A model generated the notes under the pieces. The model was not told where the DNA came from and made no database searches. It saw nothing but the letters and a program-made list of their open reading frames with translations. A stretch of 64,000 nucleotides of DNA from Bradyrhizobium ottawaense (lineage in GTDB: Bacteria > Pseudomonadota > Alphaproteobacteria > Rhizobiales > Xanthobacteraceae), in the NCBI RefSeq assembly GCF_002278135.3, contig NZ_CP029425.2, positions 310,001 through 374,000 of the forward strand, read 5' to 3'. Made by a program: the position numbers and the translations under genes. This document shows positions 1,872 to 35,622 of the stretch, piece by piece. Each line of letters starts with the position of its first letter. The first letter of the stretch is position 1.

Positions 1872-3107
1872 ATGGCCGACCACAAGCCTGAAGACGCAGG
1901 ATTGGCTCCTGAGTCCGGCCGTGCCAAGCGCACTCCGCCCACCATCGACCTCGAAGCCACCGAAGTCTCGACCCAGCCGCAGGAGGCGGCGGTCGAGCCG
2001 GAGGCTCACCTGGAGCCCGAGCGAGCCGCGCACGAGCAGACCAGGGTCGAGGAAGCCAAGTCCGAAGAGATCGAGTCCGAAGAGACCAAGTCCCAGCCGC
2101 AGCCTGAACGCGCTGAGGAACAGCCTTCCGTCGCGTCCGCGCCGATGTCGCCCTGGGTCATCGCGCCGTTCTCCGGCGCTGTCGCAGCGGCGGTCGTGAT
2201 CGCGGTCGGCTGGTTGCTGGGCTGGCCCGCCGTACAGGCGCCGCCGGCCGCCCCGCAAGTCACGAGCGCGACGGTCGATGCGCTGAGCGGTCGCGTTGCG
2301 GCAGTCGAAGCCAAGGCCGGCAAGCCCGCCGCTGATCCCGCCATGGCGGCGCGGATCGACGCGCTGGAGAAATCCGCAACCGGCTTGCGCAGCGACGTCG
2401 CCAATCTGCGTGCGCAGTCCGACAAGACCGCGAGCACATTGAACGATGCGAAAGCGGCGCCGCAAACTGCCGTGCCCGACCTTGCCGCTCTGAGCGACCG
2501 CATCGCCCAGCTCGAGCGCGCCAGCAAGACCGAACGTGCCGAGCTTGCGCAGCAGGGCGAGAAGATCGCCGATGCGAAGAGGATGGACGACAAGCCGCTG
2601 CGTCATGTGGTGGCGGCGGCCCTGCTCGACGTCGCCGTTCGTCACGGCGATGCTTACGAGTCGCAATTGGCCGCAGCGCGGGCGATGGCGACAAAGCCCG
2701 ATGCGCTGAAGCCGCTCGACACCTTTGCCGCGTCAGGCATTCCGACGCCGGTGGCGCTGAGCCGCGAGTTGCTCAATATCGTGCCGAAGCTGTCGCCGCC
2801 GGCGGAAGCCCAGACCAGCGGCACGGGCATCGTCGAGCGTCTCCAGGCAGGAGCCTCAAAGCTCGTCCGCATCGAGCGCACCGACGGGGTCGGCAACGAT
2901 CGCGGCGCCATCGTCGCACGGGTGACGGCAGCGGCGCTGCGCAATGATTTCGTGGAAGCGCGGCGCGAGCTCAAGACGCTGGCCGAGGCCGATCGTGCGC
3001 CGGCGCAGGCCTGGCTCGACAAGGCCGATGCCCGCGACGCTGCGCTCGCCGCTTCCCGCAAGTTCGCCGACGATGCCATGGCGGATCTCGTCAAGCCTGC
3101 TCAATAA
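1872..3107 (+). CDS. Mitofilin-like membrane protein (COG4223)
   Basis: A 411-residue single-pass inner-membrane protein. The N-terminal ~95 residues are acidic and Pro/Glu-rich (cytoplasmic), a membrane helix lies near residues 97-120 (SPWVIAPFSGAVAAAVVIAV), and the remainder is periplasmic with heptad-like helices (residues ~135-220) and a C-terminal helical region resembling mitofilin/Mic60. A GAGGA Shine-Dalgarno lies 10 bp before the ATG. It sits between hemD and hemY, as in many Rhizobiales. Related alphaproteobacterial proteins are thought to shape intracytoplasmic membranes; that role here is inferred from family only. Confidence 0.85.
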   Translation: MADHKPEDAGLAPESGRAKRTPPTIDLEATEVSTQPQEAAVEPEAHLEPERAAHEQTRVEEAKSEEIESEETKSQPQPERAEEQPSVASAPMSPWVIAPFSGAVAAAVVIAVGWLLGWPAVQAPPAAPQVTSATVDALSGRVAAVEAKAGKPAADPAMAARIDALEKSATGLRSDVANLRAQSDKTASTLNDAKAAPQTAVPDLAALSDRIAQLERASKTERAELAQQGEKIADAKRMDDKPLRHVVAAALLDVAVRHGDAYESQLAAARAMATKPDALKPLDTFAASGIPTPVALSRELLNIVPKLSPPAEAQTSGTGIVERLQAGASKLVRIERTDGVGNDRGAIVARVTAAALRNDFVEARRELKTLAEADRAPAQAWLDKADARDAALAASRKFADDAMADLVKPAQ

Positions 3108-3143
3108 AGCTTCGCGCAACAATCAGCGCGTATAGGGATCGCC

Positions 3144-4892
3144 ATGCTTCGCATCGTCCTCTTCCTTGTCCTGATCGCGCTGGCGGCGGCCGGCGCGGCC
3201 TGGGTTGCCGACCAGCCCGGCGATCTCGTCCTGACCGCGGGCAGTTTCCGCGCCTCGACCACGCTTCCCAAATTCGTGTTCCTGCTTGGCCTGTTTGCCG
3301 CGGCCGTCGTGCTGGTCTGGAGCATCGTGACGACGATCTGGCGCACGCCGGGGCGTCTGCGCCGCCGCCGCCATGACAAGCGCCACGCGCGGGGCCGCCA
3401 CGCCATCACCCACGGCCTGCTTGCGATCGGTCATGGTGACACCGCGCTCGCCCGCCGGCACGCGGAAACGGCGCGGCGACATGCCCCGAATGATCCGCTC
3501 GCGCTGCTCCTGCATGCGCAGTCAGCGCAGCTCGAAGGCAATCGCGACGAGGCGCAGCGCGTCTTCCGCGCCATGGCCGAGCGCGAGGACACGCGCCTGC
3601 TTGGCCTGCGCGGCCTGTTCATCGAAGCGCAGCGCGCCGACGATGCGGTCGGCGCCGTGATGATCGCGGAGGAAGCGATCAAGCTGTCGCCGTCCTCGAC
3701 CTGGGCCTCGCATGCGGTGCTCGGCTTCCGCTGCGCGCGTGGCGACTGGAGCGGTGCGCTTGCGATCCTCGATTCGAATCTGTCTGCGGGGCAGATCGAC
3801 AAGCAGACCTATCGCCGGCAGCGCGGCGTCCTGCTCACCGCACGCGCGCTGGAATTGGCAACCATGGACCGCGACGTCGCGCGCGAGAGCGTGATGGAGG
3901 CGATCAAGCTGGCGCCGACGCTGGTGCCGGCGGCGGTGCTCGCCGCAAAATTCGAGAGCGAGGCGCATCAGGTGCGCCGCGCCATGAAGCTGGTCGAGGC
4001 CGCCTGGATCGCGAATCCGCATCCCGATCTCGCCGATGCCTATGCCCACGTGAAGCTAGGCGATACCGCGTGGCACCGCTTGCAGCGGGTCGAGACGCTT
4101 GCGGCCAAGACGTCGGCCGACAAGCCCGGTCATGTCGAGGGCCAGCTCGCGATCGCGCGCGCCGCGATCGATGCCTCCGAGTTCGCTCGCGCGCGCGAGG
4201 TGCTCGCGCCTTATGTCAAGGATCCGACCCAGCGCGTCGCGCTGCTGATGGCCGAGATCGAGCGCACCGAGCACGGCGATGGCGGTCGCGCCCGCGCCTG
4301 GACCCTGCGCGCGGTGCGCGCCCGTCACGATCCGGCCTGGACTGCGGACGGCTACGTCAGCGACCGTTGGCGCCCGGTCTCCCCGGTCACCGGCCGGCTC
4401 GATGCGTTCCAGTGGCAGACCCCGGTCGCGAGCCTGCCTTCGGACAAGGGGACCACGATCGAATCCTCGGCCTTCGAGGAGGCCATGCTGGCGGCCCCGC
4501 CGCCGAAGCGGGTGACGGTGGCTCCCAGCGAAGGCCCGGCGGAACCGCCCGTGGCGGCACCAGCATCGGCACCGGCGTCAGTGCCGGCCGCGCAGGACAA
4601 TTTGCCCCCGATGGCCAAGGACGAGCCGGCCGTTGCGACCGCCGAACCGGTCCAGCCGGCCCCCGAGCCCGCCGAATCACCGCCGCCCGCGGCGACCCCC
4701 GTGTTCCGGAGCCGCGCCGACCTCGGCAAACCCGCGCCAGCGCCGATTCCTGCGGTCATCCCGATCGTCCGGGCCCCCGACGATCCCGGGATCGATGACG
4801 AGGGTCCGAGCGATGAATTTACGGAACAAATCGGTACACCCAAGGCTCAGGCCGGCGGCTGGCGCGGATTCTGGTCCCGCTGGGGCGCGTGA
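3144..4892 (+). CDS. hemY: Heme biosynthesis-associated TPR protein HemY
   Basis: A 582-residue HemY_N protein (the proteobacterial TPR type, unrelated to the Bacillus protoporphyrinogen oxidase of the same name). Two N-terminal membrane helices (residues ~1-22 and ~42-66) are followed by a basic RRRRHDKRHARGR stretch and TPR repeats to about residue 410; the last 170 residues are Pro/Ala-rich and probably disordered. It starts 36 bp after the COG4223 gene, so hemD, COG4223 and hemY are probably one transcription unit. The exact biochemical role of this family in heme synthesis is unsettled. Confidence 0.88.
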   Translation: MLRIVLFLVLIALAAAGAAWVADQPGDLVLTAGSFRASTTLPKFVFLLGLFAAAVVLVWSIVTTIWRTPGRLRRRRHDKRHARGRHAITHGLLAIGHGDTALARRHAETARRHAPNDPLALLLHAQSAQLEGNRDEAQRVFRAMAEREDTRLLGLRGLFIEAQRADDAVGAVMIAEEAIKLSPSSTWASHAVLGFRCARGDWSGALAILDSNLSAGQIDKQTYRRQRGVLLTARALELATMDRDVARESVMEAIKLAPTLVPAAVLAAKFESEAHQVRRAMKLVEAAWIANPHPDLADAYAHVKLGDTAWHRLQRVETLAAKTSADKPGHVEGQLAIARAAIDASEFARAREVLAPYVKDPTQRVALLMAEIERTEHGDGGRARAWTLRAVRARHDPAWTADGYVSDRWRPVSPVTGRLDAFQWQTPVASLPSDKGTTIESSAFEEAMLAAPPPKRVTVAPSEGPAEPPVAAPASAPASVPAAQDNLPPMAKDEPAVATAEPVQPAPEPAESPPPAATPVFRSRADLGKPAPAPIPAVIPIVRAPDDPGIDDEGPSDEFTEQIGTPKAQAGGWRGFWSRWGA

Positions 4893-5172: not shown

Positions 5173-6819
5173 ATGGCGAACGGAACGGGGGCCGCGGATC
5201 GGAGCGACTGGGTCCGGCTGCCGGGCCTCGTCATCCTTGCGGCGTTGATCACCGCCATCGTCGCTTCCAAATCGCTCGACGCGTCGCGGCTGCACAGCCG
5301 GCTGTCCGTTCCGCCGCTCTATGACGACGTCGCCTATTTCGGCGACGCGGTCAGATGGGTGAGTGCCTTCGGAAGCCGCGGCGTCGCCGGCAGCGTCTGG
5401 GACTTGCTGCATCACCATGCGCCGTTTTCGACGCTGGTGGCGGCCACCGGTTTTTGGTCGTTTCCCGGAAGCTATCTCGGTCCTTATCTCGTTCATGCCG
5501 TGATCGTCTTCGGCTTCCTGCTCGGGATCATCTGGCTGGTTCGGCGACGGCCGGTCCTCGAGATCGCATCGTGTCTGATCGCAGCGGTGTGCGTGCCAGT
5601 GCTGTGGCACACGATCACGGAAGCGCGTCCCGATCTGCCCTCGGGACTTGCCATCGGTCTTGCCGCCGGTGCCATCGTCTACCGCGGCGTGCTCCGGCGC
5701 AGCGCCCGGTCGCTGGCTGGCCTCGGGGTCGCCTGTGCACTCGCCGCCTGCATCAAGCCGACGTCGTTCCCGGCTGCGCTCGCTCTGCTCGGCAGTGCGT
5801 TCGCGATCCGGCTGGTCGTCGATTGCATCCAGGCCGGCGGATTGCGCTTGTCGATCAGGACTGCGCTCGGCGCGCTCGTGTGGTTCGTGCTGCCGTTGAT
5901 CGCGACCACGGCCGCGCTGATCGGGCCCGCATTGGTCGAGACCGTCACCTACATTCTTATGGTGTTCGTCGGCCAGCGCGACCTCTGGACGACGGGCGAA
6001 GGTTTCTGGCCCGGGCTGCTACGTTTCTCCATCGGTGGAGAGGGACAGTTCGGCCTGCACTATTGGCTCGCCATCGGGTTGGCCTTGATGCTGCTGCGCT
6101 TCGTGCTCGCTGCGATCCGGGGCCGGGCTGCGGTGCTGGATGCCGTCGTTCTGCTCGCGACCGTGCTGATTGCCTACGCCATTCCGTCCGTTGCCGAGAT
6201 CAAGACCTACTTTTTCGGCGCAATGTTCTACGGCGTGTTCATCGTCGCGATGGTCCTCAATGGCTGCGCCATCATGGCGTCCATTGAATCGCTGCTTGCG
6301 CGCACGGCCCTTGCGACAGCCATCCGTCGCCATATGCTGACGGCGGGCCGGGTGCTTGCGCTCGCAATGGCGTTCGCGCTGTTCGTCAAGCACGTCGTGA
6401 TCGGTCAGCTCAGCGTGGCGACGCCGCTGAGCGCACAGCAGCAGGACAGCATCCGCGCATCGACCGAGCGTCTCTGGTCGCTTCTGCGCGACGTCAAGCC
6501 ACCGCCGTCGGGCCCGCTTTATGTCGGCTTTTCGAGTCCCTACCCGGTCACGCCCGCGACCATTCAGTTGTATGCGGCGCAGGCGCGGATGAATCTCGTC
6601 GTCCGCGGCGAGATGCTGCATCGAACGGCAGCGGCCACCGCAGACGCGCTTCTGCAGTCGAACATCCTCGTCGTCTCGAGCTCGATCCAGCACACGCTGG
6701 TCGGACCGCGGGTCGGCGATGATCTCATCGCCCGCATGGACGCGGAAAAGGGCGTCTGCCTGCTCGACAGCATGAGCTTTCCGGATGTGACGCTGCGGGT
6801 CTATCGGCGGGCGTGTTGA
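5173..6819 (+). CDS. Polytopic membrane protein, GT-C glycosyltransferase-like
   Basis: About 548 residues with roughly ten membrane helices. After the first helix (GLVILAALITAIVAS) comes PPLYDDVAYFGDAVRW, an acidic DD motif in the first periplasmic loop as in GT-C glycosyltransferases that use polyprenyl-linked sugars. The last ~130 residues form a soluble domain. I do not recognise a specific family member, so the acceptor and donor are unknown. The ATG at 5173 is preferred for the AGGGG just before it; a GTG at 5149 would add eight residues. It lies downstream of tRNA-Thr and appears monocistronic. Confidence 0.7.
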   Translation: MANGTGAADRSDWVRLPGLVILAALITAIVASKSLDASRLHSRLSVPPLYDDVAYFGDAVRWVSAFGSRGVAGSVWDLLHHHAPFSTLVAATGFWSFPGSYLGPYLVHAVIVFGFLLGIIWLVRRRPVLEIASCLIAAVCVPVLWHTITEARPDLPSGLAIGLAAGAIVYRGVLRRSARSLAGLGVACALAACIKPTSFPAALALLGSAFAIRLVVDCIQAGGLRLSIRTALGALVWFVLPLIATTAALIGPALVETVTYILMVFVGQRDLWTTGEGFWPGLLRFSIGGEGQFGLHYWLAIGLALMLLRFVLAAIRGRAAVLDAVVLLATVLIAYAIPSVAEIKTYFFGAMFYGVFIVAMVLNGCAIMASIESLLARTALATAIRRHMLTAGRVLALAMAFALFVKHVVIGQLSVATPLSAQQQDSIRASTERLWSLLRDVKPPPSGPLYVGFSSPYPVTPATIQLYAAQARMNLVVRGEMLHRTAAATADALLQSNILVVSSSIQHTLVGPRVGDDLIARMDAEKGVCLLDSMSFPDVTLRVYRRAC

Positions 6820-6927
6820 TCGCAGCCGGCCGGTTCGAAATTGCTCCGCGATTGTGTGAGGCCAATCACTTAACCCAGGACACCTTCCCCGTAATGTCCC
6901 GGGTACGCCAACACGGGGAGATTTCAC

Positions 6928-7320
6928 ATGCGCAAGATCATTCTGGTTGCCGCCATGGTCCTGGCTTCTGCCTCTGCCCAGGCAGACGGCTCCCGCAGCC
7001 TGTCACTGTCCGCGGCGGGCGCTCAGGCCCCTGCTCCACAAACGACGCCGACCGCCGCCACGGCGCAGGTGAGCGAAGTCGCGCCAGCCGCGGAGGCGCC
7101 GAAATATTCCGATCGTCCGCCGGCAGTGTCGCTCTCTGCGCCGGCCGCCACGGTCACGCCGGCGGCTCCCGCGGTGACCACGCCCACGACCACCCCGGCG
7201 CCGGTCGCGACAACCAAGCCCGCCACCAAGAAAACGGCAAGGGCGGACCAGCCGAAGTCCAAGCGCTGGACCGAGCGCCGCATCATCAGCGAGCTGCACC
7301 GCCACGGCATCTATTGGTAA
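6928..7320 (+). CDS. Small secreted Ala/Pro/Thr-rich protein
   Basis: A 130-residue hypothetical protein. It has a clear Sec signal peptide (MRKIILVAAMVLASASAQA, cleavage after AQA), a low-complexity Ala/Pro/Thr/Val region through residue ~105, and a basic C terminus (SKRWTERRIISELHRHGIYW). GGGGAG lies 9 bp before the ATG. The ordered basic tail is conserved-looking and may be the functional part; no function can be assigned. A strong hairpin follows the stop codon. Confidence 0.75.
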   Translation: MRKIILVAAMVLASASAQADGSRSLSLSAAGAQAPAPQTTPTAATAQVSEVAPAAEAPKYSDRPPAVSLSAPAATVTPAAPAVTTPTTTPAPVATTKPATKKTARADQPKSKRWTERRIISELHRHGIYW

Positions 7321-7338
7321 GCCGTTCGCCAAAAGCAA

Positions 7339-7363
7339 ATGGCCGGGCAAAAAGCCCGGCCAT
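7339..7363. terminator. Perfect hairpin between convergent genes
   Basis: ATGGCCGGGC and GCCCGGCCAT pair perfectly around an AAAAA loop. It lies between two converging genes and can serve both as a terminator, although there is no long T-run. The same core recurs at 46605 and 51484, so it also belongs to a repeat family. Confidence 0.7.
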
Positions 7364-7394
7364 GACGCTAGACTTTGGATCGGATCGCTGGCGT

Positions 7395-8450
7395 TTACTG
7401 CGACACCGTCTGCACCACGCTTCCGATCGGACGCGTGTTCGTGCTCGCGGTCGGCACCTTCATGTCCTTCATGATCGCTTCGTCATATTCCGGCAGCGTC
7501 TGCAGCGTCGTCTTGGCCTTCATCTGCACGACCTTGTAGCCGCCGGCCTTCAACCGCGCGAGCAGCGTCGGCAGGGCCAGTCCGGTATTCTTCTGGAAAT
7601 CGTGCATCAGGATGATGCCCTTGCCGAGCTTGTCGAGCCGGGTCATCACCGTCTCGATGATCTTTTCCGGCGTGGCGCCCTTGCGGAAGTCGAAGGAGTC
7701 GACGTCGGTCGAGAACATCGCGACGTTGCGGGTGCCGAAATAGCCCACGATCGCCGGATTATGCTGGAGCTGCGGAAAGCGGAAGAACGGCGCGGGGTTG
7801 GCACCCAGCGCGAACCTCACCGCGCTGATGCCCTTTTCGACCTCGTCCTTGGCCATCTGCTCCGTCATCTTCTTGCCGTTCAGATTGACGTGCGACCAGG
7901 TATGCGTGCCGACCGTATGGCCCTGGGCCAGCACCTGGCGCAGGATCTCCGGATGATAGGTCGCATGCTTGCCGACCGAGAAGAACAGGCCCTTGGTGCA
8001 TTCATCCGCCAGCGCCTTCAGCACATTCGGCGTGTTCACCGGCCAGGGACCGTCGTCGAAGGTCAGCACGACTTCCTTGTCGGTGAGGAAGTCGAATTGC
8101 TTGAAATGATCGAAGCCGAAGCCGGGGCCGCCGGTGGTGTCGATCTCGACCACGCGGGCGACGCCCAGCGCGTTCGGATTGGTGCAGGTCGATTTCTGCT
8201 GAACCGGCATGGCCGGGGCGGGCGCGGGTGCCTGAGCAACTGTCGTCGGCTTGGCGGCGATCGTTGCGGTGGTCTCGACGTCATCCCTGGCGGCGAGCTT
8301 CGCCGGTGCCGGCAATTGATCGGCGGCACGGGCGGCAATTGTCTTGGGAGCGGCCTGATCGGCGCGCGAGGAATAATAAAACCAACCGCCGGCGGCGATC
8401 ACGACCGCCGCAACTACACTGGCCAACATCAGGCCCAACGCATTACGCAT
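7395..8450 (-). CDS. Membrane-anchored polysaccharide deacetylase
   Basis: A carbohydrate esterase family 4 (NodB-like) protein of 351 residues. An N-terminal uncleaved anchor (residues ~4-25) and an Ala/Pro linker to ~100 precede the NodB domain. Motif 1 is VLTFDDGPWP (catalytic Asp and metal Asp), motif 2 is HTVGTHTWSH (metal histidines), and later FFRFPQL and ILMHDF correspond to motifs 3 and 5. It should de-N-acetylate an extracytoplasmic glycan such as peptidoglycan or exopolysaccharide; the substrate is not evident. The ATG at 8450 with upstream GGAAAG is chosen over a TTG at 8465. Confidence 0.9.
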   Translation of the reverse strand: MRNALGLMLASVVAAVVIAAGGWFYYSSRADQAAPKTIAARAADQLPAPAKLAARDDVETTATIAAKPTTVAQAPAPAPAMPVQQKSTCTNPNALGVARVVEIDTTGGPGFGFDHFKQFDFLTDKEVVLTFDDGPWPVNTPNVLKALADECTKGLFFSVGKHATYHPEILRQVLAQGHTVGTHTWSHVNLNGKKMTEQMAKDEVEKGISAVRFALGANPAPFFRFPQLQHNPAIVGYFGTRNVAMFSTDVDSFDFRKGATPEKIIETVMTRLDKLGKGIILMHDFQKNTGLALPTLLARLKAGGYKVVQMKAKTTLQTLPEYDEAIMKDMKVPTASTNTRPIGSVVQTVSQ

Positions 8451-8580
8451 CGCTATTCTTTCCAATTACGCAACCAAACCGGCGGAATTTCCCGCGCGAC
8501 GAGCCATTAATGCGAAGTAACAGTTAACGTGACACCAACACGACGGCGGTTGTGGAGGAATTTCAGGGCGGTGCGCCAAA

Positions 8581-8594
8581 GTGACCGACGTCAC
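8581..8594. promoter_or_regulatory. CRP/FNR-type palindrome, upstream copy
   Basis: GTGACCGACGTCAC is GTGA-N6-TCAC, the core of the Crp consensus TGTGA-N6-TCACA. It is the first of two such palindromes with centres 30 bp apart, 110 bp before the start of the Cys-rich protein gene. Confidence 0.5.
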
Positions 8595-8610
8595 AGTCGG
8601 GGTGCGGCCC

Positions 8611-8624
8611 GTGACCATCATCAC
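8611..8624. promoter_or_regulatory. CRP/FNR-type palindrome, downstream copy
   Basis: GTGACCATCATCAC is a second GTGA-N6-TCAC site, about three helical turns from the first and therefore on the same face of the DNA. It lies 80 bp before the ATG of the Cys-rich gene. Confidence 0.5.
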
Positions 8625-8703
8625 AGTGGAAACTGTTTTGCTGGAGCATCGTAGCTCCCATCAACAACGGGCACCGTTGCGACGGCGCCAATGGGAGCTT
8701 CAA

Positions 8704-9027
8704 ATGACCAAATCTCCTGACACCAAGTCTCTTAACACCAAGTCCTTCTCTGCCAGTCTCCGCGACATCAGCCTGGCGCTCGGCCTTGCCGCCATTGTCT
8801 CGCTCGTCTCGACGACCTCGAGCTTCGCCTTCTCGGCCGAGGCGCAGCAGCAGTGCACCGGCGACGCCTTCCGCCTGTGCTCGTCGGAAATCCCCAACAT
8901 CCCGAAGATCACGGCCTGTATGATGAAGCATCGCTCGGACCTGAGCGTCGGCTGCCGCGCGGTGATGGACAAGGATCTCGCCAAGGGCGCGTCGCGCAAG
9001 GTCGCTGACGCCCAGGACAAGCAGTAA
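8704..9027 (+). CDS. Secreted cysteine-rich repeat protein (GLG1-like), copy 1
   Basis: A 107-residue exported protein with a signal-type helix at residues ~18-40 (ISLALGLAAIVSLVSTTSSFAFS). The mature part has the spacing C...AFRLC...ACMMKHRSDLSVGC, matching the cysteine-rich repeat first described in Golgi protein GLG1 (PF00839-type), with four cysteines likely to form two disulfides. The ATG at 8704 has GGGAG 8 bp upstream; the open frame extends back to 8581 but without a start context. The next gene carries the same motif. Function unknown; probably periplasmic or outer-surface. Confidence 0.75.
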   Translation: MTKSPDTKSLNTKSFSASLRDISLALGLAAIVSLVSTTSSFAFSAEAQQQCTGDAFRLCSSEIPNIPKITACMMKHRSDLSVGCRAVMDKDLAKGASRKVADAQDKQ

Positions 9028-9076
9028 GAGCACGCAACACCGTCATCGTTGCGTCGGTTAGCTCCCCTCGCGAATA

Positions 9077-9099
9077 CGCCCCGGCGTCTAGCCGGGGCG
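9077..9099. terminator. GC hairpin after the first Cys-rich gene
   Basis: CGCCCCGGC pairs perfectly with GCCGGGGCG around GTCTA. There is no T-run, so it may be an attenuator, an mRNA stabiliser or a repeat remnant rather than an intrinsic terminator. Confidence 0.45.
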
Positions 9100-9198
9100 A
9101 CGCGGCGGCGTCATGCGGCCGCCAATAAAGCCGTTGCGGCTGAGGGATCGTCGCACTAGCTTCGCCCGCACATTCTTCCGGGTAAGAGGCATTACGCG

Positions 9199-9414
9199 AT
9201 GACCAGATTTCTTTTCATTCTTCTCTTGCTGCTCGGCGCGTCGGTCGCATCCGCGCAGCAGCAGCCGGGCCACGATGCCTGCGCGCGCGATGTCACCCGC
9301 TTCTGCCGCGCCGTGATGAACAATGGCGATGGCGCTGTGCTCGCCTGCCTCAAGCAGAACCGCACCAAGCTGAGCAAAGGCTGCGACAAGGTGCTGACCG
9401 AGCACGGGCAGTAG
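9199..9414 (+). CDS. Secreted cysteine-rich repeat protein (GLG1-like), copy 2
   Basis: A 71-residue protein with a textbook signal peptide (residues 1-19, cleaved after SAQ or nearby) and a single repeat: C..DVTRFC...VLACLKQNRTKLSKGC. Cysteine spacing and the K(Q/H)(N/R)...L(S)xGC ending match the protein encoded 170 bp upstream, so the two are paralogues. Its stop lies 33 bp from the stop of the convergent MFS gene. Function unknown. Confidence 0.75.
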   Translation: MTRFLFILLLLLGASVASAQQQPGHDACARDVTRFCRAVMNNGDGAVLACLKQNRTKLSKGCDKVLTEHGQ

Positions 9415-9446
9415 TGCTTCCCGTGGCCCGGATGGAGCGAAGAAAC

Positions 9447-11135
9447 CTACGTGCTGCTCCCCGCCGCGGTCGCGACCACCGGCAGCACCTCGGCGCTCGC
9501 ACGATCTGGCGTCTCATCCTTCCAGCGCACCGAGCCGAACGGACGCTCCAGCATGCGGCGGATCCGCACCGGCTCGGGACCGATATGGAAATCGATCGCC
9601 TGCTGATGCAGCGCGCGTTCGGACTGCGTCGAGCGGTTGCGCTGGCGCAGATAGTCGAACCAGGTCGGGCAATGATAGCGCTCGGTCCACAATTCGGGGT
9701 CGGCGATGTCGCGGGCGATCGACCAGCCATAGGCGCCGTTACGTTGCCGTGAGAGCTGCACGTCCTGCATCACGTTGTGGAACGCGCGCGCGTTCTCCTG
9801 TGACACGCGGTATTCGATCTCGACCACCAGAGGTCCGCTGCGCCCTGTCAGGGACAGTTTCACCTCGGGATCGGCCAGCACGTCGGCATCCTCGTTGCGG
9901 GCACCGACGCGCGGCATCGTCAGCCAGATCCCGAGCAGGGGCGAGATCAGCATCAGGCCGGCGGCGGTCAACAATGCGACCTCGACGCCGGCATAGTCGG
10001 TGAGATGGCCCCAGCCCCAGGCGCCGATGGCGATGCCGCCGGAGATCGAGGCCTGGAATGCCGCGAGCGAGCGACCGGCGACCCAGCGCGGCGCCGAGAG
10101 CTGCACGCCGATATTGAACAGCGCGATCGCGGCCATCCAGACCGCGCCGGCCAGCACCAGCGCAGTTGCCGTCAGCACCGGCTCCGTGCTCAGGGCAAGG
10201 GCAGCCATCGCGAACGCCATCGAGATGGTGCAGGCGCGGATCGCGGCCTCGCCGCTCATGCGCTTGCGCAATTCGTGGATGTTGAGCGCGCCGACCACGG
10301 CGCCCATGCCGAAGGCCCCCAGCATGATGCCGTAGGTCTGCGCACCGCCATGCAGCAGGTCGCGCGCGACCAGCGGCATCAGCGCCATGATGGCGCCGCC
10401 GATCAGGCCCATCACCAGCGTGCGCAACAGCACGATCTTGATCGGCGGCGAATTGGTGATGTAGCGGAAGCCGGAGACCATGGCGCGGTTGAGCTTTTCC
10501 CGCGGCAGGCGCGAGGGCTCGGTGTTGCGCCGCCACAGCAGCAGCACCACCAGCAGCGGCAGATAGAGGATCGCGTTGCAGGCAAACGCCGCTACCGCGC
10601 CGAGCGCCGCGACGATGACGCCGCCGACTGCGGGCCCAAAACTGCGGGCGATGTTGTAGCTGATGCCGTTCAGCGCGACGGCCGAAGGCAGCGCATCGGG
10701 CGGCACCTGTTCGTTGACCGAAGACTGCCACGCCGGGCCGAACAGCGCGTTGCCGCTGCCCACCACGAAGCAGAAGGCGAGCAGCGTCTCCGGGCTGATG
10801 AGATTGAACCCGGCCAGCACCGTCAGCGCGGTTGCGCCGGTGAGTGCAATCATCAACGAGACCAGGGTGACGATGCGGCGGTCATACATGTCGGCGATGG
10901 CGCCGGCCGGCATCGAGATCAGCATGATCGGCAGCATCAAGGCGGTCTGCACCAGCGCCACCTTGTCCGCCGAGGCCGCCATCTGCGTCATCGCCCAGGC
11001 TGCACCCACGCCCTGGATCAGGAGGCCGAGATTGGAGAGCAGGCTGGCGAGCCAGATGCGCCGGAACACGGTGTACCGCAGAGGCGCGGTGATGCCGTCG
11101 GCGGCGATTCTCTGGCGGTTCGTCTGCTCGGTCAT
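9447..11135 (-). CDS. MFS transporter with C-terminal ABM-like domain (MFS_3)
   Basis: 562 residues. Residues ~15-415 form a twelve-helix major-facilitator exporter of the MFS_3/EntS (transmembrane secretion effector) type. The last ~130 residues (GPLVVEIEYRV to the end) form a soluble ferredoxin-like domain resembling antibiotic-biosynthesis monooxygenases, as in a subgroup of MFS_3 proteins. GGAAGGGGAT directly precedes the ATG at 11135, so the longer open frame (to 11360) is not used. It is divergent from the Tat-exported hydrolase gene and probably exports a small amphipathic compound; the substrate is unknown. Confidence 0.85.
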   Translation of the reverse strand: MTEQTNRQRIAADGITAPLRYTVFRRIWLASLLSNLGLLIQGVGAAWAMTQMAASADKVALVQTALMLPIMLISMPAGAIADMYDRRIVTLVSLMIALTGATALTVLAGFNLISPETLLAFCFVVGSGNALFGPAWQSSVNEQVPPDALPSAVALNGISYNIARSFGPAVGGVIVAALGAVAAFACNAILYLPLLVVLLLWRRNTEPSRLPREKLNRAMVSGFRYITNSPPIKIVLLRTLVMGLIGGAIMALMPLVARDLLHGGAQTYGIMLGAFGMGAVVGALNIHELRKRMSGEAAIRACTISMAFAMAALALSTEPVLTATALVLAGAVWMAAIALFNIGVQLSAPRWVAGRSLAAFQASISGGIAIGAWGWGHLTDYAGVEVALLTAAGLMLISPLLGIWLTMPRVGARNEDADVLADPEVKLSLTGRSGPLVVEIEYRVSQENARAFHNVMQDVQLSRQRNGAYGWSIARDIADPELWTERYHCPTWFDYLRQRNRSTQSERALHQQAIDFHIGPEPVRIRRMLERPFGSVRWKDETPDRASAEVLPVVATAAGSST

Positions 11136-29416: not shown

Positions 29417-29698
29417 TTAGCTGCCGTTCCGGGCCGGCGGGGCCTTTCGCCCCATGATGGCCGCCCAGATCAAGACGACGCCTCCGATGCCGATGACTAG
29501 TCCCAAAAACACCAGCGACGCGATGTCGGAGGGGATCTGGCCACCCTCGACCACCGACATTCCGCCGAACAAGAGCGCGCAGAGCCCCGGCAGCAGCATG
29601 AAGATGCCGGCGATCGCCATCAGCGCGGTCAGGCAGCCGCTGCGCTGTTGCTGGTTCTGCGGAGGCACTGCCGGTGGGCTGGGGCTGGAATCGCTCAT
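29417..29698 (-). CDS. Small two-helix membrane protein, paralogue 2 of the rSAM cluster
   Basis: 93 residues. A Pro/Gln-rich start (MSDSSPSPPAVPPQNQQQ) is followed by SGCLTALMAIAGIFMLLPGLCALLFG (first helix), a short acidic loop, and a second helix ending MGRKAPPARNGS. The first helix is nearly the same as that of the gene directly upstream (SGCVTALM...LLPGICALIF), so the two are tandem paralogues. Its ATG overlaps the upstream stop (ATGA). Last gene of the putative unit; function unknown. Confidence 0.75.
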   Translation of the reverse strand: MSDSSPSPPAVPPQNQQQRSGCLTALMAIAGIFMLLPGLCALLFGGMSVVEGGQIPSDIASLVFLGLVIGIGGVVLIWAAIMGRKAPPARNGS

Positions 29699-29922
29699 GG
29701 TCTCTTTCTCGCTGCCCTGATCAGCATCACGCCGGCAAATGCCACCAGCAGTGCGAGGGCGAGGATGGGGGTAAAGCGGGTGTCGAAGTGGGACGACTGG
29801 GTCTGGTCGAAGGCAAAGATCAAAGCGCAGATGCCGGGCAGCAGCAGGATAACCCCAAACATCACCATGAGCGCGGTGACGCATCCGCTTCGCGACGGTG
29901 GAAGTGGAGGCGTCTCGCTCAA
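29695..29922 (-). CDS. Small two-helix membrane protein, paralogue 1 of the rSAM cluster
   Basis: 75 residues, starting with TTG at 29922 (LSETPPLPPSRSG) whose first bases overlap the rSAM stop codon as TTGA; a GAGGAG lies about 10 bp before it. SGCVTALMVMFGVILLLPGICALIFAF and LALALLVAFAGVMLIRAA are the two helices. The shared SGC-TALM...LLPG-CAL core is repeated in the next gene. I do not recognise the family. The TTG overlap is unusual but is the only start that keeps the pair's alignment. Confidence 0.65.
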   Translation of the reverse strand: MSETPPLPPSRSGCVTALMVMFGVILLLPGICALIFAFDQTQSSHFDTRFTPILALALLVAFAGVMLIRAARKRP

Positions 29923-31364
29923 CGAGGCATCTCCTCGCGCTGCGTAGCTTCCCGATAAGTGTCGCCGCGCAGCGCCGCGCGAATGCCGTCGATCTTTCCG
30001 TTCCGGTAGAACAGATTGTAGGTGTCGAACGGAATGATCGCGCCTTGCTCTGTCACGAAATGGATGCAGCTTCGCTTGACGTTGCCGACGCAGAAATTGA
30101 AGCGATCGAGAAACTGCACGATGGTGACGCGGAACACGTTCTCGTAAGAGAGCCCTTCCGGCACCTGAAAGCTCGGCAGGCAGCAAAGCAATTCGCAGAC
30201 ACGCTCGCTCGTGTTCTGCGGCCCCGATGACAGTGAGAACAGATCGACGAATTTCTCCCGCAGCACCGGATATTTCTCCGGGCTGATGGTGTTGGGCATC
30301 ACGGCGACAAGCTGCTCCTGCGGAATCAGCGAGGTCAGGGGCAGCACCCTCTCGCCATTGCGCAGGCCATAGCCGATCGAGATGCTTTCGGGATTGCAGG
30401 GCAGCGGGATCATGTCCTTGTCACCGAACACGCCGGTCTCGATCACGCGCTTGCGGATCTCCGACAGCATGATGCGGTCGGTATTTTTGTCGAAATTCTC
30501 GTTGCGGCCGGCGTCCTGCACCGGCTGCAGCGTGACGCCGCGCACGCATGTCCAGGTGAGCGCGTGGCGGACGATGTCGCCGATCTCGGCATCGTTGACG
30601 CCGCGCTTGATGGTCGCGACCAGCGTGGTCGACACGCCGTAGTGCTCGAGATTTTCCAGCGCCTGCTGGCGGATTTTTCGCAAATCCGCGCCGCGCAAGT
30701 CGATCAGCGCGTCGCGCTGCAGCGAATCGAACTGGAGATAGACCTCCAGCCCGCGCCTGTTCTCGGCGAGCCGCGCCACGAAATCCTTTTCGCGGGCGAT
30801 GCGCAGGCCGTTGGTGTTGATCATGACGTGCCGGATCGGGCGGGCGCGCACCGCGTCCAGGATCTCGAAGAAATCAGGATGCAGCGTCGGTTCGCCGCCG
30901 GAGATCTGCACGAGATCGGGCTCGCCCTCGCTTGCGACTAGCGCGTCCAGCATCTTCTCGACTGTCGCGAGCGGGGTGAATTTCGTTCGTGCCGGCGAGG
31001 ATTCCGCAAAGCAGACCGGGCAGGTTAGGTTGCAGTGCTCGGTGATCTCGATCAGCGCCAGGCAGGAATGCTGCTCGTGGTCGGAACAGAGACCGCAATC
31101 ATAGGGACATCCGAATTCGGTGCGCTGCTGGAATTGCAGCGGTCGGTCACCTGGCTTGATGAAATCCTTGCACAGGCGCCAATAGGCGGCATCCGTCGAC
31201 ACCAGCGTCGACTGGACGCCGTGCTCCCTGCAGCGCTTTTCGTACCAGACCTCGTTGTCCAGGATCTGGATCTTGGTCGGCACCAGCTTCAGGCAGGTCT
31301 CGCAAAGAGATTGGGTCTGGCCCCAGAAAATATAGGGACGCGACTTACGCAACGGCGCGTTCAT
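29919..31364 (-). CDS. Radical SAM protein resembling Tes/MJ0619 tetraether-lipid synthases
   Basis: 481 residues. The radical-SAM cluster is C111-x3-C115-x2-C118 (EHCNLTCPVCF) followed by the GGEP motif. Additional clusters: N-terminal C21/C24 and C45, CPYDCGLC (86-93) plus C101, and C-terminal cysteines near 392-400 (CELLCC), in the FNFCVGNVKRSC segment and around 435. The CPYDCGLCSDHEQHSCLAL block and the RSCIHFVTEQGAIIPFDTYN ending are the recognisable features of the Tes/MJ0619 family that joins lipid tails by C-C bonds in archaea. Its ATG overlaps the Lgt-like stop by 20 bp, so they are coupled. Lipid substrate is an inference. Confidence 0.8.
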   Translation of the reverse strand: MNAPLRKSRPYIFWGQTQSLCETCLKLVPTKIQILDNEVWYEKRCREHGVQSTLVSTDAAYWRLCKDFIKPGDRPLQFQQRTEFGCPYDCGLCSDHEQHSCLALIEITEHCNLTCPVCFAESSPARTKFTPLATVEKMLDALVASEGEPDLVQISGGEPTLHPDFFEILDAVRARPIRHVMINTNGLRIAREKDFVARLAENRRGLEVYLQFDSLQRDALIDLRGADLRKIRQQALENLEHYGVSTTLVATIKRGVNDAEIGDIVRHALTWTCVRGVTLQPVQDAGRNENFDKNTDRIMLSEIRKRVIETGVFGDKDMIPLPCNPESISIGYGLRNGERVLPLTSLIPQEQLVAVMPNTISPEKYPVLREKFVDLFSLSSGPQNTSERVCELLCCLPSFQVPEGLSYENVFRVTIVQFLDRFNFCVGNVKRSCIHFVTEQGAIIPFDTYNLFYRNGKIDGIRAALRGDTYREATQREEMPR

Positions 31365-32061
31365 GCATGGGTCTCGCTTTGGGCGCCGTCGCCAGCATGA
31401 CGCCGGCGTAGAGCAAAATGGACAGCGACAGCAGGTGAAACAGGGTGAAGGGGCCGATCAGCGTGCCGTAGGGCTTGAGGAATTCCCACGCGAAGCGTTG
31501 CGCTCCATAATAGGCAAGAACCAGGTAGAAACCATTGGTGATCACAAAGGCGTTCCGGTTCACGACGGCGAGCACATAGAGCAGCGCGAATACGGCCATG
31601 GCCGCGCTCTCATAGAGCTGCACGGGATGGCGCAGCATGCCGTCGCCGAAATCATGGGCCCATGGCAGCGCCGTCGGCGTGCCATAAGTGAAGTCGTCGA
31701 GGCCTGCGAAATAGCAGCCGAGCCGGCCGATCGCGATGCCGAGCGCCAGCGGCAGCGCAAAACGGGCACCGGTCCGCGCGGCGATCCCCGCGGACCATTT
31801 GTAGAGCTCGATCGCCACGATGCCGCCGGCAATCGCGCCCTCCACCGAGCGCGCAATGCCGCTCTCGCCCGACAGCCACAGATTGGCGGAGCCGAACAGG
31901 TAGGCCCCGAGGCCCGCGCCGAACACCAGCGCGGCGATATAGGGCAGCTCAAAGGATTGCGCCGGAAACTGCAGGCGCTGCCGCGACAGCCAGTAGACGG
32001 CCGCCGCCGCCGCCAGCCACGCCAAGACGTCGAAGATGGTGTGTAGGAAAGCCCCGCTCAT
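31345..32061 (-). CDS. Lgt-like integral membrane protein
   Basis: 238 residues with about seven helices. It matches the prolipoprotein diacylglyceryl transferase family at RHPVQLYESA (144-153) and YYGAQRFAWEF (184-194, R189 corresponds to an essential Lgt Arg). The other hallmarks differ: GRLGCYFAG replaces GRxGNFxNGE, and the HGG(L/M) motif with the essential His is absent (SVEGAIAGG). It is therefore probably not the housekeeping Lgt but a phospholipid-handling relative. It is downstream of the Crp-like gene (81 bp) and overlaps the rSAM gene. Confidence 0.8.
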   Translation of the reverse strand: MSGAFLHTIFDVLAWLAAAAAVYWLSRQRLQFPAQSFELPYIAALVFGAGLGAYLFGSANLWLSGESGIARSVEGAIAGGIVAIELYKWSAGIAARTGARFALPLALGIAIGRLGCYFAGLDDFTYGTPTALPWAHDFGDGMLRHPVQLYESAAMAVFALLYVLAVVNRNAFVITNGFYLVLAYYGAQRFAWEFLKPYGTLIGPFTLFHLLSLSILLYAGVMLATAPKARPMHERAVA

Positions 32062-32142
32062 GCGGGGGATATTAGCCCAGGTTCCGGCCGTGCGGGATAG
32101 TGCGCCTGCTCGTTCTCCACGCCGGGGAAGCGAGGCGGATCG

Positions 32143-32907
32143 CTAGCTGGCCTCCCGCTCCTCGGTCGGATAGACGCCGCGCAGCACCTCCTCGAAGTGC
32201 ATTTTCACCGCGTCGTTGCACAGGCAGGCGCGAAGCCTCAGGCCGTCGCGGTTGCGAACCAGGATCGATCCGCGCCTCGTGTCGAGAATCCGTTCCGCCT
32301 TGAACGATTGAAGCACGCGGCTGGCATAGCTGCGACCAACGCCCAACAGCGTCGCAAGCTGTTCGTGGGTCAGCGGCACGCTATCCTCGTCGCCGGTGCG
32401 CTCCATCGCCGCCAAGATCCATTTGGCGGTCCGCTGTTCGATCGAATGGATCGCATTGCAGGCGGTCGACTGGAAGATCTGCGCCAGCATGCAATCGGCG
32501 TAGCGGGCAAAGATGTTGCGCAGCGACGCCGAGCGCAGCTTGGCCGCTTCCAGCTTGGCGACATGAATGCGCGCAAACGGGCCGCCGAATTTCACGCAGA
32601 TCCGGGTATAGGCCGGCAGGAATCCTTCGCTGACGATGCCGCCCACCGCGCCTTCGCGACCGACCAGGATGGTCTCGACGTCTCGGCCATCCTCGTTGGG
32701 CACGAGAAAGGTCGCGAGCGCGGGTCCGCAGGGGAAGTGGACGACCTGGACATCGTCACCGGGGCTGTAGAGCAGCTGGCTGGCGGCGGAGTTTTCGACG
32801 GTCACGTGCGGTGCGAGCAGGGCGTAGTCTGCCTGGTTCAAACGCCGCAACAAATTGTTGGCCGGACGGCTCTCGACCTCGGTCATCTTGCTGATACGCG
32901 CATCCAT
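32143..32907 (-). CDS. Crp/Fnr family transcriptional regulator
   Basis: 254 residues from ATG 32907, which has GGGAG 6 bp upstream; the open frame to 33102 lies inside the promoter. The N-terminal cyclic-nucleotide-like beta-barrel (residues ~45-140) is followed by a winged helix: PLTHEQLATLLGVGRSYASRVLQSFKAERIL is the helix-turn-helix. No FNR-type N-terminal cysteine set. It may regulate the Lgt/rSAM unit immediately downstream and, before the insertion described at 33090, probably shared its divergent promoter with the response regulator. Confidence 0.9.
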   Translation of the reverse strand: MDARISKMTEVESRPANNLLRRLNQADYALLAPHVTVENSAASQLLYSPGDDVQVVHFPCGPALATFLVPNEDGRDVETILVGREGAVGGIVSEGFLPAYTRICVKFGGPFARIHVAKLEAAKLRSASLRNIFARYADCMLAQIFQSTACNAIHSIEQRTAKWILAAMERTGDEDSVPLTHEQLATLLGVGRSYASRVLQSFKAERILDTRRGSILVRNRDGLRLRACLCNDAVKMHFEEVLRGVYPTEEREAS

Positions 32908-33193: not shown

Positions 33194-33523
33194 ATGATTC
33201 GATCGACGCAAGCGCAGAAAGCCGAGCGGCTGAGGGCGGCGCGACGCTTGCTCGCGAAGAAAATCGGCATGGCGGAGGCGGCCTTGGTGCTGTCGCGCGA
33301 AAGCGGCTTGTCGCTGCGGCAGGCCTATCGCTATCTCGAAGTGGCCAAAAGCAGGGAGCGGCTCCTTCCCGCGCCGCAGCCATCAGTGACGCTCTCCCTG
33401 AAGATGCCGGCCGATCTTGCCCAAAAACTCCAGACGCATGCGACGGCTTCCAGGCTTTCGGCAAGCGAGGTGATGCGCCGAGCGGTGGCCGCTTATCTCG
33501 CGTCTGTCCGCGAAGATGGCTGA
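33194..33523 (+). CDS. Ribbon-helix-helix / HTH small DNA-binding protein
   Basis: 109 residues. The N-terminal ~50 residues look like a helix-turn-helix (AALVLSRESGLSLRQAYRYLEVAK). The C-terminal half is a ribbon-helix-helix: VTLSLKMPADLAQKLQTHATASRLSASEVMRRAVAAYL, with the beta strand and the SASEVMRRA turn. A likely repressor or accessory factor for the recombinase. Its stop overlaps the start of the next small ORF by 8 bp. Confidence 0.75.
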   Translation: MIRSTQAQKAERLRAARRLLAKKIGMAEAALVLSRESGLSLRQAYRYLEVAKSRERLLPAPQPSVTLSLKMPADLAQKLQTHATASRLSASEVMRRAVAAYLASVREDG

Positions 33524-33815
33524 GCGGCGAAAAAAACGCGACGTTCGACTCGAATTTGCGTTCGATCGCCTCGTCGCCGTCAAACTTGAACAGGTTTACG
33601 AAATTCTCGTTCCAGATCAGGTGCGCTTCGCGCGCGCTGGCGCCGATGTGACGGGAGGCGAAGATGAAGACCGCCGCGATTTACGCCAGAGTGTCGTCGG
33701 ACAAACAGAAGGAGGAGAACACGATCGCCAGTCAGACGAGCGCGCTGATCGCTTTCGCGCGCGAGCAGAACTGCGACGTGCCGGCGGAATGGGTGATCGA
33801 AGACGACGGCTATAG
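33516..33815 (+). CDS. Small ORF overlapping the recombinase start
   Basis: A 99-residue reading frame. Up to 33663 it has coding-like content (AERRKKRDVRLEFAFDRLVAVKLEQVYEILVPDQVRFARAGADV). From 33664 onward it overlaps the recombinase in a different frame and becomes Arg/Asp/Gly-rich, so the true end of the functional part is uncertain. The 8-bp start overlap with the RHH gene suggests coupling. I do not recognise it. Confidence 0.4.
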   Translation: MAERRKKRDVRLEFAFDRLVAVKLEQVYEILVPDQVRFARAGADVTGGEDEDRRDLRQSVVGQTEGGEHDRQSDERADRFRARAELRRAGGMGDRRRRL

Positions 33816-35622
33816 CGGCGCGAGCTTGTTGCGCCCCGGACTTGAACGACTGCGCGACCTCGCCGCAGAAGGGCGGATCCAAGCCGTGCTCGTCTACGCT
33901 CCCGATCGGCTGAGCCGGCGCTATGCGCATCAAATCCTTCTTATCGAAGAGTTCGCGCGCGCCGGCGTCGAAGTCTTGTTCATTCGCTCGAGACGGGCAG
34001 CGACGCCGGAAGACGAGCTGCTGCTGCAGTTTCAGGGCATGATCGCCGAATATGAACGCGCGCAAATCCTGGAACGGTCGCGGCGAGGGAAGCGCCATCG
34101 CGCCCTTCAAGGCCAAGTGAGCGTGCTTTCCGGCGCTCCGTTTGGCTATCGCTACAAGCGCAAGACCGATCACTCTGCCGCCTATTATGAGATCGACGAG
34201 CGACAGGCCGGTATCGTGCGCTGGGTCTACGAGCTTTACACCGCAAAAAGCCACAGCATCGGCGCCATCACGCGCCTGCTCAATGAGCGCCAGATTCCGA
34301 CAGCCAAAGAAACAGGCCGCTGGGAGCGCTCGACGGTCTGGGCGATGCTGCGCAATCCCGCGTATAAAGGAACGGCCTGCTTTGGCAAGACGCGGATCGC
34401 GCCGCGCATGCGTGTGACGCGGCCGTTGCGATTGCGCGGCGGCGTCGCTCCTCGCAATAGCGCAAATCATGAGCTTCCTCGCACAGAGTGGATCGAAATC
34501 CCTGTGCCGACCATCATCAGCGAAGAGACCTTCGCATTGGCGAACGAGCTTTTGGAAGCCAACAAGAAGCATGCCCCGCGACGCACGATCACGCCGAGCG
34601 CCCTGCAAGGATTGTTGAGCTGCGCCAAATGCGGCTATGGGCTCTATCGCACCTCGACCAGGTCGAGCGCTCGAACCATCCATTACTACCGCTGCTTGGG
34701 CTCGGATGGCTGGCGCCGGCTCGGCGGGCCGGTCTGCGACAGTCGCCCGACGCGCCAGGATTTGCTGGACGAGGTGGTATGGAAAGAGATCGCGCGTTTA
34801 CTTGAAGACCGACAGCTCATCGAAGACGAACTTGAGCGCCGGCTCAAGGCGGCGCGCAACTCCGATCCCACACAGCGCCGGGAGGAAACGCTTCGCCGCG
34901 ATCTTGCGCGTTCCCGGAAAAGCATCGAGCGTCTCCTCACGGCCTATCAAGAGAGCCTTCTCTCACTTGAAGAGCTGCGCAGTCGCATGCCCGATTTGCG
35001 TAGCCGCGAACAGGCTTGCTTGTCGGCGCTGCAGGCGATCGAAGACCAATCGCAGGAGCAGGAGGTTTGTCTGCGTCTCGCTGAATCCGTGACTAGCTTC
35101 CTCGAGCGCCTCCGCTCGTCCGTCGGCGCGCTCGATATAATCGAACGCCAACGCGTGCTGCGCCTTCTCGTGAAGGAAGTCCTCGTTGGCGACGACAAGA
35201 TCGTCATCCGCCACTCCATCCCCCTCCCACCCACCCCTCCCGGTGGAAAGGCGCCCGGCGCCGCCAATAGCTCCGTGACCGCTCCCCCACCGCAAAGTTA
35301 TCTTTTGCGTTCAGGGAACCATGACACCCGCACTTTCCAATGGCTCAAGCTGGCCGGCCGATGTTCTGATCGTCGAAGACGACCCGATCATCGCGATCGA
35401 TTTCGAGGACCGTCTGCTCGGGTTTGGGGTGACGGGCGTGCGGACCGTCGGCTCGGTGACGCAGGCGCTCGGCGCCATCGCCAAGCGTGCGCCCGACTTC
35501 GCGCTGCTCGACGTCGAGTTGATCCGCGAGACGAGCTTTGCGGTCGCCGCGCGGCTGGCCGCGCTGAAGATACCGTTCGTCTTCGTCACCGGCTATGGCG
35601 CCGAGGCGCGCATTCCGCCTGA
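33664..35622 (+). CDS. Large serine recombinase
   Basis: The catalytic resolvase domain (~1-145) begins AAIYARVSSDKQ with the nucleophile Ser in RVSS; DGYSGASLLRPGL, YAPDRLSRR and EYERAQILERSRRG are further motifs. A recombinase domain (~165-270), a zinc ribbon (CAKCGY, later YYRC and VCDSRPT) and a coiled coil (~375-475) follow. The element's right inverted repeat encodes SYLLRSG at residues ~545-551, and the frame has no stop inside the element: it runs a further ~100 codons into the host response-regulator gene. The native C terminus is thus lost or supplied by the host. Confidence 0.85.
   Translation: MKTAAIYARVSSDKQKEENTIASQTSALIAFAREQNCDVPAEWVIEDDGYSGASLLRPGLERLRDLAAEGRIQAVLVYAPDRLSRRYAHQILLIEEFARAGVEVLFIRSRRAATPEDELLLQFQGMIAEYERAQILERSRRGKRHRALQGQVSVLSGAPFGYRYKRKTDHSAAYYEIDERQAGIVRWVYELYTAKSHSIGAITRLLNERQIPTAKETGRWERSTVWAMLRNPAYKGTACFGKTRIAPRMRVTRPLRLRGGVAPRNSANHELPRTEWIEIPVPTIISEETFALANELLEANKKHAPRRTITPSALQGLLSCAKCGYGLYRTSTRSSARTIHYYRCLGSDGWRRLGGPVCDSRPTRQDLLDEVVWKEIARLLEDRQLIEDELERRLKAARNSDPTQRREETLRRDLARSRKSIERLLTAYQESLLSLEELRSRMPDLRSREQACLSALQAIEDQSQEQEVCLRLAESVTSFLERLRSSVGALDIIERQRVLRLLVKEVLVGDDKIVIRHSIPLPPTPPGGKAPGAANSSVTAPPPQSYLLRSGNHDTRTFQWLKLAGRCSDRRRRPDHRDRFRGPSARVWGDGRADRRLGDAGARRHRQACARLRAARRRVDPRDELCGRRAAGRAEDTVRLRHRLWRRGAHSA
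35295..35317 (+). repeat. Right terminal inverted repeat of the recombinase element
   Basis: AAGTTATCTTTTGCGTTCAG plus GGA, the exact reverse complement of 33090-33112. The last bases AGGGA lie 4 bp from the response-regulator ATG and may act as its ribosome-binding site. Confidence 0.9.

Follow-up and report, generated by a model that had tools for sequence, protein, structure and literature searches.

What do a Tes-like radical S-adenosylmethionine (SAM) enzyme, an Lgt-like membrane protein and two tiny cysteine-containing membrane proteins accomplish together in Bradyrhizobium ottawaense? The question is raised by a stretch of 64,000 nucleotides (positions 310,001 to 374,000 of the 8.59-Mb contig NZ_CP029425.2; the whole stretch is hereafter called the window), for which a sequence-only reading had proposed a five-gene cluster, headed by a Crp-like regulator, and a pathway modifying the tails of membrane lipids. 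The analysis presented here suggests that the gene set looks like an undescribed lipid-modification system, common to scattered, very distant bacteria. The proposed lipid-tail pathway was supported in part, namely by the Tes-type fold, the metal sites and the phosphatidylglycerol-site residues, while the C-terminal cluster residues of Tes are not kept and the Tes equivalog cut-off is not reached.

The radical SAM enzyme and its Lgt-like partner

Structure comparison revealed the GDGT-MAS fold along the whole chain of the radical SAM enzyme (rSAM; 481 aa, positions 31364-29919; minus strand, as are all five genes). The chain carries the metal sites C21, C24, C45 and H48 of rubredoxin type, C86, C90, C93 and H96 of the N-cluster, and C111, C115 and C118 of the radical SAM (RS) cluster, the metal ligands of Tes/GDGT-MAS being taken from PMC9433317. 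The corresponding patterns, CX2C...CX2H of the rubredoxin-type site, three cysteines plus His of the N-cluster and CX3CX2C of the RS site, are kept in all 30 rows of the rSAM clade. Both the cysteine layout and the C-terminal IHF...IIPF pointed out in the sequence-only reading were found, the latter as CIHF...IIPF. The C-terminal cluster residues of Tes, in contrast, are not kept, as C455 is replaced by Ser or Thr and C470 by Asp or Glu in 30/30 rows; by our own reading of the alignment, these two cysteines would be the ligands of that cluster. Met439 is kept in 8/30 rows and Tyr459 is replaced by Phe in 22 and by Ile in 8, while the new C394 and C395 are invariant in the clade; the altered C-terminal cysteines of the window enzyme are C394, C395 and C433.

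The window rSAM scored 259.7 bits (three other proteins 265.8, 279.4 and 297.9) against the NCBIfam Tes equivalog NF045702, with its cut-off of 450 bits, and 298.4 bits, its best NCBIfam score, against TrsS NF045646, with its cut-off of 490. Membership in either equivalog is ruled out by these cut-offs and by the tree, in which the TrsS-like rows form a separate clade (L195, L204 and L208 exceed the TrsS cut-off, the rest being placed by the tree). The tree was built without Mss and acidobacterial Tes references, and the placement of its long branches, MJ0619, L004 and the L212 pair, is unsure. The comparison with Tes/GDGT-synthase families suggested along with the sequence-only reading confirmed a Tes-type fold and metal sites in a protein lying under the Tes equivalog cut-off. 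A role in antiphage defence was considered and rejected, since the PADLOC matches were to viperin models only (6e-13) and are weak beside the Tes match.

The gene upstream of rSAM (positions 32061-31345) encodes an Lgt-like membrane protein of 238 aa, which scored 64.1 bits against PF01790 (cut-off 24.9) and displays the Lgt fold in structure comparison; a PDB sequence search with this protein alone returned nothing useful. It does not reach the Lgt equivalog TIGR00544 (24.8 bits at a cut-off of 118.9), whereas the genome's other Lgt copy scores 233.1 bits. In 16/16 sampled genomes a higher-scoring PF01790 protein is present as well, 15 of these 16 having N146, and the Lgt-like protein is an additional Lgt copy, i.e., a paralogue. 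Alone among the 16 high-scoring copies, the best Lgt of a planctomycete bin (L177, G493) has Cys at 146 and 151. Cys at 146 was also seen in an extra Lgt homologue at positions 6607-7410 of L219 (G495), amid large genes that by eye resemble a phage-tail or injection-type block.

In the window protein R113, Y185, R189 and E151 correspond to R143, Y235, R239 and E202 of the Escherichia coli enzyme, and H7 and C116 replace Y26 and N146 (E. coli numbering is used below). Among 87 Lgt-like rows, R143, R239, Y235, E202, G142, G145 and G154 are kept in all 86 ungapped ones; Y26 has become His in 82/82 and N146 Cys in 86/86, position 103 is occupied by Glu, Val, Ala, Leu or Ile and never by His, and R246 is replaced by Lys. 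As H103 and N146 are indispensable to the E. coli enzyme (PMC13251419, PMC4728403), their replacement could be taken to mean that the paralogue is a non-catalytic phosphatidylglycerol-binding partner of rSAM, serving in lipid presentation or scrambling. This we consider improbable, given the invariant residues listed above together with the new His26 and Cys146: since the phosphatidylglycerol-site residues are kept alongside the new His and Cys, catalysis looks changed rather than lost. H103 is not universal among true Lgt (PMC13251419).

Conservation and distribution of the gene set

The overlaps claimed for the last four genes are present, amounting to 20 bp between the Lgt-like gene and rSAM, 4 bp (TTGA) between rSAM and the first small gene and 4 bp (ATGA) between the two small genes. 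The nearest named relatives of the rSAM protein belong to Bradyrhizobium. Twenty relatives were available with their flanks, i.e., 15 orthologues (at least 60% identity), four more distant ones (L064-L067) and L050, a 29% relative with poorly called genes that was not assessable and does not enter the counts. An Lgt-like gene immediately precedes rSAM in 15/15 orthologous loci, and no Lgt-like gene was found in the fetched stretches of the four distant relatives. In one of these, L064 (positions 2260-4565), a class I methyltransferase gene comes after the rSAM relative (39% identity) and overlaps it, which represents another pairing in the superfamily.

A pattern scan of named genomes yielded at least 576 rSAM relatives, of which the best 80 were kept as named loci (52-69% identity to the first query row, which was L049 and not the window protein). 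Their labels comprise Alpha- and Gammaproteobacteria, Planctomycetota, Bacillota (Paenibacillus, Brevibacillus, Aeribacillus and Neobacillus), Caenarcaniphilales, Obscuribacterales and Methylacidiphilales. The Lgt-like gene is present in 78/80 loci (in L102 as a cut fragment only), and in the other two rSAM starts at the contig edge. The arrangement deviates in L118 (rSAM, small gene, Lgt-like gene), L087 (one open reading frame, ORF, in between) and L088 (a small gene in between). L118, from a bin labelled Planctomycetota, groups with proteobacterial rows in the tree as a result of either transfer or misbinning; L092, the other locus with this label, was outside the tree.

Within the family, 14 of 198 genomes contain an rSAM of the clade (at least 833 bits) and three others have distant matches only (174 to 297 bits); the Lgt-like profile at E<=1e-30 picks exactly the same 14. 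The spread is patchy. Of the 11 genomes listed for the genus, 6 are carriers; a draw across the class gave 3 of 289, the window genome among them, and the phylum of a Neobacillus 2 of 249, with the centre genome included. Across the 14 genomes the pairwise distances of rSAM correlate with those of the Lgt-like protein at r=0.90 and with those of the other Lgt at 0.55, the partial correlation being 0.85. The all-or-none co-occurrence and the distance correlation therefore point to inheritance of the rSAM/Lgt-like set as a unit. The co-occurrence map recommended with the sequence-only reading turned out all-or-none within the family, and the pair is kept in distant bacteria, so that the pairing exceeds chance.

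The five-gene cluster originally claimed is present in the window as described, with one qualification concerning the regulator. The Crp/Fnr-type gene (PF13545, positions 32907-32143), which ends 81 bp before the Lgt-like gene, is found near the pair in 5/15 orthologous and 20/80 named loci, 19 of the latter labelled Bradyrhizobium and one (L109) being a bin labelled Tepidamorphus; these neighbourhood counts rule it out as a member of the unit beyond Bradyrhizobium-type loci. When flanking ORFs were clustered for 31 of the 80 named loci, no further conserved partner gene emerged; what clustered was lineage synteny, antisense or spurious ORFs, an unspecific ABC-ATPase group and a Bacillota small-protein family. 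A B12-binding radical SAM protein is encoded divergently upstream of the Lgt-like gene in L059 (positions 5464-7089) and L061 (5505-7115), that is in only 2/15 orthologous loci, and is not conserved; the L059 copy has DUF4070 (Pfam), and neither copy has an NCBIfam match at 1e-20. In the window itself, positions 33194-35622 of the plus strand hold a ribbon-helix-helix protein and a large serine recombinase with Resolvase, Recombinase and zinc ribbon domains. This block sits between the Crp gene and a response regulator at 35321, and it looks like a strain-level insertion, because the same interval in the orthologous L051 is only about 170 bp.

Small cysteine proteins and a putative lipidation route

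Two small membrane proteins are encoded directly after rSAM, the first of 75 aa with a TTG start and an LPGIC motif (positions 29922-29695), the second of 93 aa with an LPGLC motif (29698-29417). They are paralogues, as had been supposed: a search with the second against its own genome found the first at 40% identity (E 2.5e-11), the next matches having E 0.2. Counted on the sequence, Cys32 of the first lies 21 residues after Arg11, and Cys40 of the second 21 residues after Arg19. In orthologous loci one to six such genes, six in L061, stand right after rSAM. An iterated profile collected 81 small-protein rows of proteobacterial type in 57/80 loci, with the Cys kept in 80/81 and, among these 80, Gly at -2 in 73; in a 13-row alignment Met1, G38, C40 and G73 are the sole invariant positions. 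A second cluster of small proteins, missed by this profile, occurs in 15 loci, and all 14 Bacillota-labelled loci have a small ORF with [NF]-[AT]-A-C-[FV]-G (13 of them with Asn), the motif lying in the last hydrophobic stretch of the printed proteins. A sister rSAM locus, L216, likewise combines an Lgt-like gene with a small membrane protein whose Cys sits close to the C-terminal end. These candidate acceptors are about 60-145 residues long.

In both types of small protein the distance from the last Lys or Arg to the Cys is mostly 17-22 residues, most commonly 20-21. A predicted transmembrane (TM) segment with a Cys 17-23 residues past Lys/Arg was found in 38/44 operon proteins, 6/71 other small membrane proteins and 13/213 larger proteins; this range was set after viewing the distances and is descriptive only, the rows are related, so that the p-value of the comparison serves as a rough guide, and the input was 57 of the 80 loci, most Bradyrhizobium loci being omitted as near-copies, of which 42 gave the 44 proteins. 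An earlier measure, which accepted a Cys anywhere in a predicted TM segment, gave 44/44 and 17/30 controls. A looser ORF test detected a small Cys protein in 79/80 loci and in 2/68 control stretches, up to three stretches per locus being searched and one per control. This distance, taken with the positive-inside rule, puts the Cys on the outer side of the membrane, which is also the side of the Lgt site.

The position of the cysteine bears on an alternative in which rSAM modifies the small proteins in the manner of ribosomally synthesized and post-translationally modified peptides, e.g., by crosslinking the Cys through thioether or C-C bonds, while anchoring or presentation falls to the Lgt-like protein. 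The small genes directly after rSAM, one to six in number, are in keeping with it, as are MoaA, SuiB and viperin, the second-tier structural matches of rSAM; a Cys that should lie at the outer TM face, beyond the reach of a cytosolic enzyme, and the Tes-type rubredoxin and N-cluster sites speak against it and make it a doubtful candidate. Another alternative, close to the sequence-only reading, is that the product of rSAM and the Lgt-like protein is a modified membrane lipid that stays free (e.g., tail-coupled, branched or thiolated phosphatidylglycerol), with the small proteins as unlipidated scaffolds or regulators. It agrees with the Tes fold, the phosphatidylglycerol-type site and the proposal that bacterial Tes homologues make lipids of the branched glycerol dialkyl glycerol tetraether (brGDGT) type (PMC8941075, PMC11868695), but leaves unexplained a Cys at the same depth in small proteins of different lineages, and we regard it as unlikely, though by no means negligible.

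We tentatively prefer, as an explanation that may have somewhat less than an even chance, a phosphatidylglycerol-using lipid-modification unit combining radical chemistry on the tails, transfer by the Lgt paralogue and the small-protein Cys as acceptor. From the conserved unit, the conserved fold and metal sites, the phosphatidylglycerol-site residues and the position of the Cys we infer a lipid substrate, an acceptor, an order of steps and a product as follows. The Tes-like rSAM, taken as cytosolic, would draw phospholipid tails into its tunnel and modify them at unactivated carbons, by coupling or by forming another C-C or C-S bond, with an altered C-terminal Fe-S site. The Lgt paralogue, its active site presumably facing outward as in Lgt, would act after rSAM and transfer the diacylglyceryl moiety of phosphatidylglycerol to the conserved Cys of the small proteins, with no signal peptide being cleaved off. 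Supporting context for lipid modification comes from L217 (G689), where a tandem pair of further Tes-like radical SAM genes (positions 7008-9817) comes after a gene run encoding an acyl carrier protein and two ketoacyl synthases.

Several points weigh against this route. Its main weakness is topological: with rSAM expected in the cytosol and the Lgt site and Cys expected to face outward, direct hand-off is unlikely, and the rSAM step would have to precede the arrival of the lipid at the outer face. Changes at the essential H103, N146 and Y26 may have abolished transferase activity, and three other Lgt homologues (L177, L179 and a neighbour of L194) share the Cys at 146. The canonical lipobox is [LVI][ASTVI][GAS]C after a signal peptide; the motif of the 80 Cys rows does not conform to it, having Leu at -1 in 43/80 and Gly in 20/80. 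One locus of the 80, L128, lacks a small Cys protein by the loose test, 6/44 operon proteins fail the stricter distance test, and the rows are related, so that the counts are not independent. The wider claim, that in several phyla a Tes-like rSAM with a rewired cluster and a Cys/His Lgt paralogue would build unusual lipids bound to uncleaved tiny membrane proteins by a non-lipobox route, appears rather improbable as a whole.

Comparison with known systems

Bacterial Tes homologues are numerous (456, Proteobacteria included, in Zeng et al., PMC8941075, where brGDGT synthesis was proposed), and according to PMC8941075 and PMC11868695 their function lacks experimental confirmation. The fixed Lgt-like partner would narrow this question to phosphatidylglycerol and adds candidate acceptor proteins, and the carriers, going by their labels, include the cultivable genera Bradyrhizobium, Caulobacter, Sphingomonas and Paenibacillus. 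Should the acceptor role hold, the set would represent a second way of lipidating membrane proteins; should the lipid part alone hold, it would be one more origin of unusual lipids in bacteria, of the type employed as palaeoclimate markers. Among the literature matches listed, subscription papers aside, nothing was found on the Lgt-rSAM pair, the altered cluster or the cysteine-bearing small proteins.

Mss, the bacterial membrane-spanning lipid synthase, couples tails, and its models are reported to have the Tes architecture (PMC13274423, which treats Mss and Ger). The TrsS radical SAM (seleno)protein shares the superfamily with the window rSAM and gives its best NCBIfam score, whereas the window enzyme lies under the cut-off and in another clade, and TrsS-like rows keep C455 and C470 in 18/18. 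With Lgt, the phosphatidylglycerol:prolipoprotein diacylglyceryl transferase, the Lgt-like protein has in common PF01790, the fold and R143, R239, Y235, E202, G142, G145 and G154, but it is an extra copy without H103 and with N146, Y26 and R246 changed to Cys, His and Lys. Archaeal tetraether synthase (GDGT-MAS/Tes, MJ0619) has the same whole-chain fold and the same rubredoxin, N-cluster and RS sites as rSAM, which differs from it in the replaced C455 and C470, Phe or Ile for Tyr459, Met439 in only 8/30 rows, the new C394 and C395 and the Lgt-paralogue partner. The families are known; their combination and the residue changes appear to be new.
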